A stretch of DNA of 64,000 bases. It comes from Undibacterium sp. YM2 (GTDB lineage: Bacteria; Pseudomonadota; Gammaproteobacteria; Burkholderiales; Burkholderiaceae_D). The stretch lies in contig NZ_AP018441.1 in assembly GCF_009937975.1 (NCBI RefSeq), forward strand, positions 3,224,001 to 3,288,000, given 5' to 3'. How positions within the stretch are numbered: the stretch's first letter is position 1; every line of letters begins with the position of its first letter. The notes below the pieces were generated by a model. It did no database searches and was not told where the DNA came from. It worked only from the letters and a program-made list of their open reading frames with translations. This document shows, piece by piece, positions 39,280 to 42,966 of this stretch. A program made the translations under genes and the position numbers.

Positions 39280-40356
39280 CTATGGACCAGGTGTAGCCAG
39301 CTTGAACGACACCGTCTGCATGACCTGACCATCATCAAAACACAAGGAGCGTTCTGGCCATTGCAATGCAGCCAGCTTGCAATCCGACTCAGGAAAATCT
39401 TTATTTTTTCTCGCAGACCAGCGACCGCCAACAGAAAAGTCAACGCAAAACACATTGCCGGCTACACCATGCCATGCAAGCGGCGATGTATTCTCAAACA
39501 GGTCTTCGCCACCCTTGCCAACATGGACGCGGTCAAACGCATTGAAGCGACGCCAATAATGACCAACCACCACGGGCAGTTGCTCTGTGTATGCATTCCA
39601 CCATTGCTCACGCCCCACAAAACGCCATTTGCCGCCAGAATAGAAAGGCTCATGCCATTTACTTTCTACTCCAGACGTCAGCACCCTCAAAGGATTATGC
39701 ATTTGCATCAGAACATCATATGCTGCATGAGCATGCATGAATGGTGGCAGATGATCCGGGTTTTCCAGGCCGGGACTGTGTGCAGCCAGTTCAGCCTGCA
39801 TTTGCGCAGAAAATTCCTGCGCCAACTGCCGCGTGTCGGCGTCCAGGCGGCGGTCATTTTCCATCACGCTGCCCAGAGCAAGATGACGTATTCCTTCTAT
39901 ATGCTCCGCGATCCATGCTGCGTGTACTACCCGCAGATCTTCGCGCTCAAGCGCAACGGGCAGAGATGCTAAAAAATTTAGGGTATCTGCTTTCTTTGCG
40001 GTATCCAGCCTTTTGAAAGGCGCGTACTTGGGTTCATCCCTGACTGCTCGCTCTTCAAAAAACCAGCCAGCACCATCTTTGGCACTACCGCGCAATAGAT
40101 TCATTTCATGATTGCCCAATACCGCTACTGCCCTGCCCGCCTTGACCAGGCGCTCAAGCAATGCCAGCACAGCCGGGCTATCTGGTCCGCGATCGCAAAA
40201 GTCACCAACAAATACCAAGTTGCGCTCATCCAAGTGTTTGCCATCGGCATCATAACCAAGGTGATGCATCAAGTTGCAAAGGGCTTCATATTCGCCATGA
40301 ATATCGCCAATAATATCCAGCGGGCCAGACGGCAGTTGTTGAATCAGACTCATCAT
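39280..40356 (-). CDS. PPP-superfamily metallophosphoesterase (ApaH/PrpE-like), divergent from a WYL regulator
   Basis: A 358-residue cytoplasmic phosphoesterase with all PPP-family metal motifs: GDIHGEYEAL (about residues 17-26), VFVGDFCDRGPDS (about 49-61), VLGNHEMNLL (about 79-88), VVHAAW near 144 and GHYWRRFNAF near 275. Relatives hydrolyse diadenosine tetraphosphate, protein phosphate or nucleotide phosphates; the substrate here is not clear. It is longer than ApaH or PrpE by about 100 residues, mostly an insertion around residues 170-260 (DADTRQLAQEFSAQMQAELA). Its start at 40356 shares a 199-bp control region with the WYL gene, with a perfect 19-bp inverted repeat, so it is probably repressed by that protein. 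Confidence 0.85.
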   Translation of the reverse strand: MMSLIQQLPSGPLDIIGDIHGEYEALCNLMHHLGYDADGKHLDERNLVFVGDFCDRGPDSPAVLALLERLVKAGRAVAVLGNHEMNLLRGSAKDGAGWFFEERAVRDEPKYAPFKRLDTAKKADTLNFLASLPVALEREDLRVVHAAWIAEHIEGIRHLALGSVMENDRRLDADTRQLAQEFSAQMQAELAAHSPGLENPDHLPPFMHAHAAYDVLMQMHNPLRVLTSGVESKWHEPFYSGGKWRFVGREQWWNAYTEQLPVVVGHYWRRFNAFDRVHVGKGGEDLFENTSPLAWHGVAGNVFCVDFSVGGRWSARKNKDFPESDCKLAALQWPERSLCFDDGQVMQTVSFKLATPGP

Positions 40357-40435
40357 TTTCCTTTTATTCTGTTACCACGCTACAGCTTTCCAGAAGCCAT
40401 CAAAGTGACTGCATATCTTGCGGCAGCACAAAGTT

Positions 40436-40466
40436 GCAGTACCAGCAACTACCAACATCGAATCAA
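40436..40466 (-). promoter_or_regulatory. Candidate promoter of the metallophosphoesterase gene
   Basis: On the minus strand TTGATT (40466-40461) is followed after 19 bp by TACTGC (40441-40436), which has an extended TG before it. The -35 lies within the left arm of the 19-bp inverted repeat. The -10 is weak and the spacing long, so this is tentative. Confidence 0.35.
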
Positions 40467-40519
40467 TTTGATTTCATTTTAAATCCAATTGAATAATAGC
40501 ATCAAATTGATTCGATGTT
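40454..40519. promoter_or_regulatory. Perfect 19-bp inverted repeat: candidate WYL-regulator operator
   Basis: AACATCGAATCAATTTGAT (40454-40472) and ATCAAATTGATTCGATGTT (40501-40519) are exact inverted copies separated by 28 bp. Each arm also contains an 11-bp palindrome, ATCAANTTGAT, and a related CCAATTGAAT lies in the spacer. The pair sits midway between the two divergent start codons. BrxR/CapW-type regulators are known to bind inverted repeats in their own promoter regions, so this is very likely the operator of the adjacent WYL protein. Confidence 0.8.
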
Positions 40520-40536
40520 AAAATATTCGATACAAT
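40507..40536 (+). promoter_or_regulatory. Promoter of the WYL regulator gene
   Basis: TTGATT (40507-40512), 18 bp, TACAAT (40531-40536). The -35 is inside the right arm of the 19-bp inverted repeat, so bound repressor would block polymerase. Transcription would start near 40543, leaving a leader of only about 13 nt before the ATG at 40556 and no SD. Confidence 0.6.
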
Positions 40537-40555
40537 TCACCAACCGATCAGCATC

Positions 40556-41443
40556 ATGCATCTGGAAACTCTGCCCGCAGCCCAGCGCGAACGTCTCGCA
40601 TTTATAGAGTTTCGCTTGTGGTTTCTTGGTAACGTCACACGAAAAGACGTCATGGACCGTTTTGATATAGCCTCAGCGGCTGGCACGCGCGACCTGGTTT
40701 TGTACCGGGAACTGGCACCCGGCAATGTGCTGTATGAAGGAAAAATGTATCACTATCAGGAGAACTTCCAGCCCCTGTTTCAACATCAGGCAGACAGAGT
40801 ATTGTCAGCACTGTGCTCAGGATTTGGAGATGGCGAGCGTGGCACTGGCACATCCTTGTTGGCACACGACATCCCCAACCGCCTGAATCAACCGGCACTG
40901 CAGGACCTGGCCAGAGTAACCCGCGCCATTCGTGGCGAATACCCACTAAGGCTGACCTATCACTCCATGAAAACCGGCCCATCCAAGCGGGAAATTGTCC
41001 CGTTGGCACTGGTGGATTCTGGCCTGCGCTGGCACGTACGGGCCTATGACAGAAGCAAACAAGAATTCCGCGACCTGGTACTGACACGCATGGATGACAT
41101 CACAGATATCAAGCCAGGCGATAGAAGTCACGCGCTGCAAGCACATGAACAACTCGCTGCCGATGATCAATGGCAACGCATAGTCCATATCGAATTACAG
41201 CCCCATCCCTCGCACCAGCATCCAGAGTCCATCATGCGCGACTATGGGATGAAAAATGGCCAGCTCGAAGTCAAATTACGGGCTGCTATCGCTGGCTACG
41301 TCCTGCGTCAGTGGCAAGTCGATTGCTCACCAGATGGCAAACTTGACGGCAGCAACGCCAGATTGAGGCTGGCCGATCTGAGCGTGCTTGATGAGGTAAG
41401 TAATGCAGTACTGGCACCGGGATATCAGAAAATGAATATCTAG
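40556..41443 (+). CDS. BrxR/CapW-like WYL-domain transcriptional regulator
   Basis: A 295-residue DNA-binding regulator. An N-terminal winged helix (about residues 10-75: FIEFRLWFLGNVTRKDVMDR, then FDIASAAGTRDLVLYRE) is followed by a WYL ligand-sensing domain (about 110-195) with the signature in LRWHVRAYDRSKQEFRDLVL, and a C-terminal WCX dimerisation domain (about 205-290). This architecture and the RWHVRAY form are those of BrxR/CapW proteins, which repress BREX, CBASS and related anti-phage loci. No BREX or CBASS gene is present; the only partner is the divergent phosphoesterase. Autoregulation through the 19-bp repeat is inferred. Confidence 0.88.
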   Translation: MHLETLPAAQRERLAFIEFRLWFLGNVTRKDVMDRFDIASAAGTRDLVLYRELAPGNVLYEGKMYHYQENFQPLFQHQADRVLSALCSGFGDGERGTGTSLLAHDIPNRLNQPALQDLARVTRAIRGEYPLRLTYHSMKTGPSKREIVPLALVDSGLRWHVRAYDRSKQEFRDLVLTRMDDITDIKPGDRSHALQAHEQLAADDQWQRIVHIELQPHPSHQHPESIMRDYGMKNGQLEVKLRAAIAGYVLRQWQVDCSPDGKLDGSNARLRLADLSVLDEVSNAVLAPGYQKMNI

Positions 41444-41764: not shown

Positions 41765-42766
41765 TCAGGGAATAGCAGACCAGCGCCGGCAATGCTCAAA
41801 GGCAAATTGTGAACCCCAGACTCCTGGCAGCACATCCGATTTGATCATGCCTATGAGTTCGGCGGTTTTACCCTTGTCTTTCGCATCACAGGCAAACTTG
41901 GCGAAGTGATTGATATTCCATGCATCGGGATATTTTTTCAATACATCGTCAATCCCTTTTTTCATAGTCGTCCAATCTACCTGTGATTCAGTAAACAGCC
42001 TGTTACGATATTGTGTCTGCGCGGCGTACCAGTAGATCCTCGCATACATACCATACCCTTCAACAGCCTCGGTACGCTCCAGCGCCTTACGAGCAAATTT
42101 CTCTATCGCATCAGCACTACCACCCCATTTGGGTGCGTAATAATCAATGGCATCAAAGTACAGAGGATAGAACTGAGGCATTTTACTGAGGCCCTCATCT
42201 ATCAAGGCCTCCATCTTATTTTCTGGCCAGCTCTGGTACTTGGCGATTCCCTCCATTTGCTGGTACCAGTATGGATCCTTAGAGGCTATCTTTTTATGTG
42301 CTTCAAGATACACTCTCGCTTTTTCTACGTATGTATAGAATGGCTTCCAGTTTTTTTCTTGCACATCACCAGCAAAGCCACTACCTCTGGCGGTCCAGGC
42401 ACGATTGATCAGCATTTCAGCATAAGCTAATTGAGCAGCAGCAGAATTAGGGTACGCTCTTTGCCATTTTTTTATGCGCCCTTCTATTCCAGACCATGCC
42501 TCGTCATCATTAGTGTTATGCCTGAATGATTTTGATAGCCCTACATAAAAGAGTGTTAACTTCCATAATCCACTCGACGTGCGGGCTTGAGGATCACGAA
42601 AAGCTGTTGCCATTTGCTCGAGCTCGGCAAATTTTCCGTTAATGGACAATTCTTTTACTTCATTCTCAATTTTTTCTCTATTCTCAGCTTCGTCGGCATA
42701 AGAAAATTGTGTGATCAATGTCATCAAGGACATGATCAAGCCCAGGCTAAGTTTTTTTAAATGCAT
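41765..42766 (-). CDS. Exported DUF4034-like protein
   Basis: A 333-residue protein with a signal peptide (MHLKKLSLGLIMSLMTLITQ, cleavage near FSYA-DE, residue 25). The remainder is helical and tetratricopeptide-like. AYPNSAAAQLAYAEMLINRA and AWTARGSGFAGDVQEKNWKP (about residues 104-145) resemble the DUF4034 family, whose role is unknown. KWGGSADAIEKFARKALERT (about 215-234) also fits. It is convergent with the WYL gene and has no operon partner; the tRNA-Arg gene lies upstream. Codon use looks like the rest of the window. Confidence 0.75.
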   Translation of the reverse strand: MHLKKLSLGLIMSLMTLITQFSYADEAENREKIENEVKELSINGKFAELEQMATAFRDPQARTSSGLWKLTLFYVGLSKSFRHNTNDDEAWSGIEGRIKKWQRAYPNSAAAQLAYAEMLINRAWTARGSGFAGDVQEKNWKPFYTYVEKARVYLEAHKKIASKDPYWYQQMEGIAKYQSWPENKMEALIDEGLSKMPQFYPLYFDAIDYYAPKWGGSADAIEKFARKALERTEAVEGYGMYARIYWYAAQTQYRNRLFTESQVDWTTMKKGIDDVLKKYPDAWNINHFAKFACDAKDKGKTAELIGMIKSDVLPGVWGSQFAFEHCRRWSAIP

Positions 42767-42889: not shown

Positions 42890-42966
42890 TGGCCTGCCCA
42901 GTAGGAATCGAACCTACGACCCCGAGCTTAGAAGGCTCGTGCTCTATCCAACTGAGCTATGGACAG
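42890..42966 (-). tRNA. tRNA-Arg (anticodon TCT)
   Basis: A 77-nt cloverleaf with the 3' CCA encoded. The acceptor stem is CTGTCCA with TGGGCAG (one G-U pair); the D-arm is GCTC-AGTTGGATA-GAGC; the anticodon arm is CGAGC-CTTCTAA-GCTCG, giving anticodon TCT, which reads AGA; the T-arm is GTAGG-TTCGATT-CCTAC; the discriminator is G. It is followed by a terminator. Confidence 0.96.

Follow-up and report, generated by a model that had tools for sequence, protein, structure and literature searches.

A conserved divergent pair of a BrxR/CapW-type WYL regulator and a PPP-type phosphoesterase with its own predicted operator

In a 64,000-nucleotide stretch of the Undibacterium sp. YM2 genome (hereafter the window; contig NZ_AP018441.1, positions 3,224,001 to 3,288,000), a gene for a PPP-type metallophosphoesterase and a gene for a winged-helix WYL regulator of the BrxR/CapW type were found to lie head-to-head. 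Both open reading frames (ORFs) are intact and divergent, and the 199-nt gap between them carries a perfect 19-nt inverted repeat (40454-40472 / 40501-40519). Thus, the locus is as an earlier note on this DNA had described it, two intact divergent genes with a dedicated control region. The features, in window coordinates, are as follows.

39280..40356, minus strand: PPP-type metallophosphoesterase gene, 358 aa, intact ORF, Pfam PF00149
40454..40472, no strand: predicted operator arm 1, core ATCAATTTGAT, downstream of the -10 predicted for the phosphoesterase gene
40493..40521, minus strand: predicted phosphoesterase promoter (TTAACA, 17 nt, TATTAT, extended -10), a consensus match only
40501..40519, no strand: predicted operator arm 2, core ATCAAATTGAT, set between the phosphoesterase -35 and -10 and partly covering them, and overlapping the weaker WYL promoter match
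40507..40536, plus strand: weaker WYL-gene promoter match (9/12), a consensus match only
40556..41443, plus strand: BrxR/CapW-type winged-helix WYL regulator gene, 295 aa, intact ORF, Pfam PF13280

The regulator matches PF13280 (WYL) with an E value of 1.6e-12. Its residues 3-292 align with BrxR of the Escherichia fergusonii plasmid pEFER (7qfz; phmmer E 6.9e-73), and the CapW chains and another BrxR come next, which confirms its assignment to the BrxR/CapW kind. In PMC9122601, BrxR homologues are delimited by E < 1e-5 to the E. fergusonii protein; the value found here lies below that limit, with phmmer used in place of the BLASTP of that paper. The RWHVRAY form expected of such proteins is present at residues 158-164, next to FRDLVLTRM (171-179) and downstream of the helix IASAAGTRDL (38-47). 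As for the proposed layout of winged helix, WYL and WCX domains, the full-length match to solved BrxR and CapW chains supports it as a whole, but a separate WCX domain was not called by Pfam. In the alignment with CapW, Tyr, Ser, Arg, Trp-His and two Arg of the pocket are present, and Phe185 is replaced by Leu.

The phosphoesterase matches PF00149 with an E value of 5.6e-14, and its closest relative is that of Undibacterium sp. Tian12W (94% identity). It has the GDxHG, GDxxDRG and GNHE motifs and the two later His motifs by which PPP enzymes are recognised, here as GDIHG (aa 17-21), GDFCDRG (51-57), GNHE (81-84), HAAW (145-148) and GHYW (265-268), together with WW (252-253) and CVDFS (304-308). 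Its sequence indicates an intact PPP enzyme, with a predicted fold nearest to the Pnkp RNA-end phosphatase and second nearest to ApaH. Three named families were tried and rejected: full-length Pnkp (TIGR04075; 83.3 bits against a cut-off of 750, with the match limited to residues 10-89), the diadenosine tetraphosphate (Ap4A) hydrolase ApaH (51.5 bits against 176 for NF001204; 26.9 against 222.85 for TIGR00668) and the Ap4A hydrolase PrpE (58.4 bits against 340 for NF010148). None of the families modelled in PADLOC-DB 2.0.0 matched the enzyme at E <= 0.1.

Is the gap a true control region? When the gaps of five Undibacterium species are aligned, both arms of the inverted repeat can be recognised in every one; two species show one or two changes in them, and outside the arms much of the sequence differs. 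The arms are spaced by 28 nt in two of the species and by 17 nt, one helical turn less, in the other three. No other copy of a 17-nt arm was found across the 6.66-Mb genome with up to two mismatches. The arm at 40501-40519 overlaps the top-scoring promoter match found in the stretch, which reads 10/12 with a TG ahead of the -10 (minus strand, 40521-40493). The promoter scan gave 6 sites against 3.2 expected by chance and thus proves nothing alone; a TG-n-TATnnT resembling this extended -10 follows the arm in most of the directly facing relatives.

Each arm contains the dyad ATCA-N3-TGAT. An exact copy lies within 200 nt upstream of the WYL gene at 12 of 13 phosphoesterase-linked loci and at 24 of 35 others, where about 0.003 would be expected per shuffled sequence. 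Two exact copies are present at 7/13 linked loci and at 0/35 others (Fisher 2e-5, the rows being non-independent). At these 24 of 35 other loci (L138-L171; L and G numbers denote loci and genomes), the exact core lies mostly 84-120 nt ahead of the aligned start of the related WYL gene. ATCA-N3-TGAT is therefore offered as the predicted family operator of these WYL genes. When the upstream regions of the phosphoesterase genes were compared, a near-match to the operator (up to two mismatches) was found in 9/12 rows with a WYL partner and in 4/53 rows without one; at up to one mismatch, with the five main Undibacterium rows counted once, the contrast is 4/8 against 1/53 (p 6e-4). For this count the motif was read from Undibacterium itself, and matches with a query start beyond 20, an identity under 40% or short or identical upstream DNA were dropped.

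A tree was made of 52 WYL proteins (50 different, with two doubles; short matches and identical rows were dropped). The 12 phosphoesterase-linked proteins come from two families and one plasmid; they group as a single clade with a support of 100 in the Shimodaira-Hasegawa-like approximate likelihood ratio test (SH-aLRT), and the other rows, the pEFER BrxR included, fall outside it. The sister of the clade is the WYL protein of G107 (support 96, long branch), whose own gene faces that of a distant phosphoesterase of the same superfamily. FRDL is common to all 12 linked proteins and the G107 protein; the other aligned WYL proteins have a Phe at this position. Taken together, the sequence comparisons give good support to a conserved divergent pair with its own predicted operator, probably one regulatory unit.

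How widespread is the pair? In the family of Undibacterium, a full-length phosphoesterase (at least 50% identity) was found in 10/392 genomes; seven of these also carry the WYL gene, and they alone have WYL relatives of at least 66% identity. In the comamonad family, the phosphoesterase occurs in 41/399 genomes and a divergent WYL neighbour at 3 of the 30 loci given; this survey listed 48 places, of which 30 gave these loci and two of the other 18 were seen via plasmid records. The pair is also on a plasmid of Diaphorobacter sp. HDW4B (matched by coordinates) and on a Giesbergeria metagenome contig. Thus, the two genes co-occur beyond close relatives, in two families and on a plasmid with a shared operator, a point on which the earlier note had made its proposal depend. 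Gene calls came from a rough script, which set some genes of GC-rich loci in the wrong frame. It overlooked the WYL gene of L209, which tblastn recovered, and the absence of a WYL gene at L142 and L163 is read from these rough calls.

In a tree of 66 phosphoesterases (short matches and identical rows left out), 12 rows have a WYL partner, 3 only a small ORF and 51 no WYL gene. Presence of the WYL partner requires seven changes on this tree, which has several long branches. Since the linked regulators form a single clade, the most economical account is a single pairing with several later losses, though transfer could also have paired the genes again. The earlier note took the phosphatase for the regulated effector, and this is partly supported: the pair recurs as a unit with a shared predicted operator, yet across its family the enzyme is more often without a WYL partner and so not dedicated to one. 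Small ORFs lie between the partners in 3 of the 12 pairs (two in G264, one each in G132 and G1029). Separately, a small unnamed protein of 89-132 aa is encoded directly upstream of the phosphoesterase at four loci (L126 10513-10782, L125 9978-10376, L121 2207-2503, L207 9199-9489); the L126 copy gave no Pfam match. Two more small protein families accompany comamonad pairs (L009 2460-3238; L205 16168-16626 and 13246-13899; L208 8399-8659).

Relatives of the regulator are often found beside restriction, BREX-like and helicase genes. In a PADLOC scan of one neighbour gene each of 31 WYL relatives, at least 8 match type I methyltransferase models and at least 6-7 match DrmD/HmaA/BrxH-type helicase models at E <= 1e-30; the genes were hand-picked, often but not always the first downstream, and the counts come from the 25 listed of 79 families. 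Because of these neighbours, the regulator probably derives from an often defence-linked stock, as reported for BrxR homologues, 48% of which have known defence genes downstream (PMC9122601). By the same figure, co-location with defence genes is not needed in the BrxR family; it is lacking by Pfam at the window pair and seen in some relatives. The genome of Undibacterium sp. YM2 itself carries two further WYL genes (L156, L172): a BrxR-type one ahead of type I methyltransferase-like genes, and one on the 175-kb contig that is more distant.

Are the pairs themselves near defence genes? Ten loci with a WYL partner or a small ORF were taken from outside the Undibacterium site, and at least five of them have PADLOC matches below 1e-20 close by:

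L009: type IIG
L122: type I
L124: PLD-helicase and DUF1156 methylase, with a DarG-type gene further out
L205: IetA-like ATPase
L207: Zorya C and D

One scanned near gene matches DruE models and is probably the large helicase of L207; two near genes of L126, scanned singly against PADLOC, gave no match. Among loci without WYL, 2 of 12 have a match, one to a Fic protein and one, probably generic, to an RtcR-like sigma-54 regulator. These scans covered hand-picked near genes (48 and 40 proteins), with 25 of 97 families listed, so that the locus counts are lower limits.

A distant sister family of phosphoesterases (about 30% identity) has GHYW and C-x-D-x-S in common with the window enzyme. At 11 Burkholderiales loci, its gene faces that of an NrtR-type Nudix repressor in seven (L059, L061, L062, L065, L113-L115; one genome supplies two of them), WYL in one and neither in three; L108, L110, L112 and L116, with weak matches, and L063 were left out, and NrtR was confirmed by Pfam in the one locus checked. 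At L059, an ADP-ribosylglycohydrolase gene is also at the locus. Of 15 plasmid records, 10 were opened: a Vibrio casei plasmid carries a gene run of Csm6, ADP-ribosylglycohydrolase and phosphoesterase (L244, 1604-5374), a Paracoccus plasmid has a glycohydrolase-phosphoesterase run, on a Marinobacter plasmid a WYL gene annotated near the phosphoesterase is of a different type, and the other seven regions gave no link to a glycohydrolase or WYL gene. Thus, the sister phosphoesterase accompanies an ADP-ribosylglycohydrolase in three loci. Conflict systems that place a glycohydrolase and a phosphatase (in some cases calcineurin-like) under a Nudix or WYL repressor were predicted in a 2022 survey (PMC9503650). 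From these predicted systems and the company of the sister family, an ADP-ribose-like or RNA-end ligand is a fair guess for the window pair.

The pair occupies one chromosomal site in five Undibacterium species, between a tRNA-Arg gene and a chemotaxis receptor gene; in the window its surroundings are housekeeping genes. In the window, the site is marked by the following feature.

42890..42966, minus strand: tRNA-Arg (tct), with the WYL/phosphoesterase pair on its 3' side

Beyond the WYL gene are a DUF4034 gene, this tRNA gene, and genes for a phosphoglucomutase-type enzyme and a pterin-binding enzyme (glmM and folP by reading); beyond the phosphoesterase gene are the chemotaxis receptor gene and a flavin adenine dinucleotide (FAD) oxidase gene. 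The DUF4034 gene (41765-42766) separates the tRNA and the WYL gene in the window; the four other species with the pair have too little space there to hold it. The congener G187, which lacks the pair, has the same tRNA and receptor genes, its phosphoglucomutase and receptor genes being 0.9 kb apart. Seven other congeners without the phosphoesterase have the tRNA-Arg, mostly followed by different genes. The genes on the 3' side of this tRNA vary; a search for a second tRNA end found none that marks an attachment site.

What might the pair do? I consider the chances about even that it is an autorepressed, ligand-induced nucleotide or RNA-end phosphoesterase for stress or phage response. I infer repression, release by a ligand, a nucleotide or RNA-end substrate and a role in stress or infection as follows. 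A dimeric WYL repressor would bind the two ATCA-N3-TGAT dyads, read from the sequence, that overlap the divergent promoters, and would silence both the phosphoesterase gene and its own. By analogy with CapW and BrxR, the repression may be lifted when the WYL pocket takes up a ligand that arises in stress or infection; the likeliest candidates are nucleotides, ADP-ribose-like molecules and RNA ends. The induced stand-alone PPP enzyme, of the Pnkp-phosphatase/ApaH-PrpE branch, would then hydrolyse nucleotide phosphates or RNA ends, to judge from its fold, motifs and gene company. Because its relatives live without the repressor, it would remove or mend the products of damage instead of acting as a poison to the cell. 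The pairing would have arisen from the defence-linked regulator family. In a more elaborate and rather doubtful version, the pair would be a minimal two-gene immune or damage unit, in which the WYL protein senses an ADP-ribose-like molecule or cleaved-RNA end and the Pnkp/ApaH-like phosphoesterase removes the same molecule, ending the signal and repairing the damage; such a unit would be a reduced relative of the ADP-ribosylglycohydrolase-phosphatase systems, in which WYL and NrtR can stand in for one another as sensors.

Several results weigh against a ligand-induced stress or phage enzyme. Most of the sampled phosphoesterase relatives have no WYL partner, and several such copies are beside folA, thyA, an Orn-like exonuclease gene or other core genes. 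Where CapW has the pocket residue Phe185, the window protein has Leu, as do the 11 other linked WYL proteins and L060. The excess of defence neighbours (at least 5/10 against 2/12) is not significant (Fisher p 0.17); the enrichment that the earlier note looked for is therefore suggestive only, with some copies adjoining defence genes. Among the neighbours of the window pair (35.8-45.3 kb), Pfam found no defence gene, in agreement with that note, and no ADP-ribosylglycohydrolase or RNA ligase gene. Across 274 genomes of the wider bacterial class, none of 11 sister-family loci had these NrtR and WYL types within about 1.5 kb, a search that other WYL kinds would escape.

It is possible, if somewhat unlikely, that the enzyme is a housekeeping ApaH/PrpE-like nucleotide phosphatase and that some lineages gained a local WYL repressor tuning its level, with no link to phages. 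The abundance of WYL-less copies fits this, as do the dihydrofolate reductase, thymidylate synthase or exonuclease genes beside it at L127, L128 and L130 and the single chromosomal site in five species. So does one genus in which two species have the WYL gene and the third (G1146) lacks it at the same site, where tblastn found no WYL remnant. On the other hand, its presence is patchy in both families, copies are on plasmids, and some pairs are beside Zorya, type I, type IIG or PLD-helicase/DUF1156 genes. The phosphatase without a WYL partner, which the earlier note had named as part of its counter-case, is the more frequent form, often in housekeeping surroundings, but the pair also recurs as a unit.

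A lone anti-phage effector, derepressed on infection so that a nucleotide pool or signal is destroyed and phage growth blocked, seems improbable. The regulator is nested among often defence-linked WYL proteins with a common core operator, several pairs are near defence genes, and CapW is divergent from the CBASS operon that it represses (PMC9122588). However, repressor-less relatives are common and an unrestrained enzyme is thus tolerated, which argues against a strongly toxic, cell-killing effector; the enzyme had no PADLOC match at E <= 0.1, and by Pfam no defence gene adjoins the window pair. Autoregulation alone would likewise preserve an operator. That the two genes are mere head-to-head neighbours, with the WYL gene autoregulated and the phosphoesterase outside its control, is nonetheless very improbable, even given this and the small ORFs in 3/12 pairs, because the pair is retained across two families with one regulator clade, an operator arm overlaps the phosphoesterase promoter match, and the operator is mostly absent where WYL is absent.

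Compared with known systems, the regulator resembles the pEFER BrxR (7qfz; PMC9122601) in its full-length match, its tree family and inverted repeats near its own promoter. In contrast, that BrxR precedes BREX genes in one direction, whereas the window regulator faces a single phosphoesterase, and the repeat bound in the electrophoretic mobility shift assay of that paper differs in sequence from the window repeat. CapW of CBASS (7tb6, 9c5g) binds palindromes over the -10 and is encoded on the opposite strand to its operon (PMC9122588); it is like the window regulator in being divergent from the controlled genes, with a palindrome over the -10 and a His replacing the Tyr of WYL. It differs in controlling a CBASS operon, in the pocket Phe and in its three named DNA-contact residues (Ser, Gln and Ser), which are not kept in the aligned window regulator. 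Unlike the bacterial Pnkp phosphatase domain (4j6o), the window enzyme was seen without a kinase domain, a ligase domain or a Hen1 partner, and it is longer than ApaH and PrpE, with its own WW...GHYW...CVDFS motifs and scores far under their cut-offs. The predicted ADP-ribosylglycohydrolase systems (PMC9503650) follow the same logic of pairing a Nudix or WYL repressor with a phosphatase, and the distant sister enzyme occurs with NrtR; the window pair lacks their adjoining glycohydrolase gene. No description of a WYL-phosphoesterase pair was found in the open-licence literature of PubMed Central, a search that leaves out most subscription papers.

These results connect a WYL sensor and the ADP-ribose sensor NrtR to one phosphoesterase superfamily, and offer a predicted operator core, ATCA-N3-TGAT, for many related and often defence-linked WYL genes. 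The system is small, and two proteins and one promoter suffice for in vitro work. The BrxR/CapW regulators have a conserved pocket; because the regulator here faces a single enzyme, the substrate of that enzyme would hint directly at the ligand of the WYL protein.
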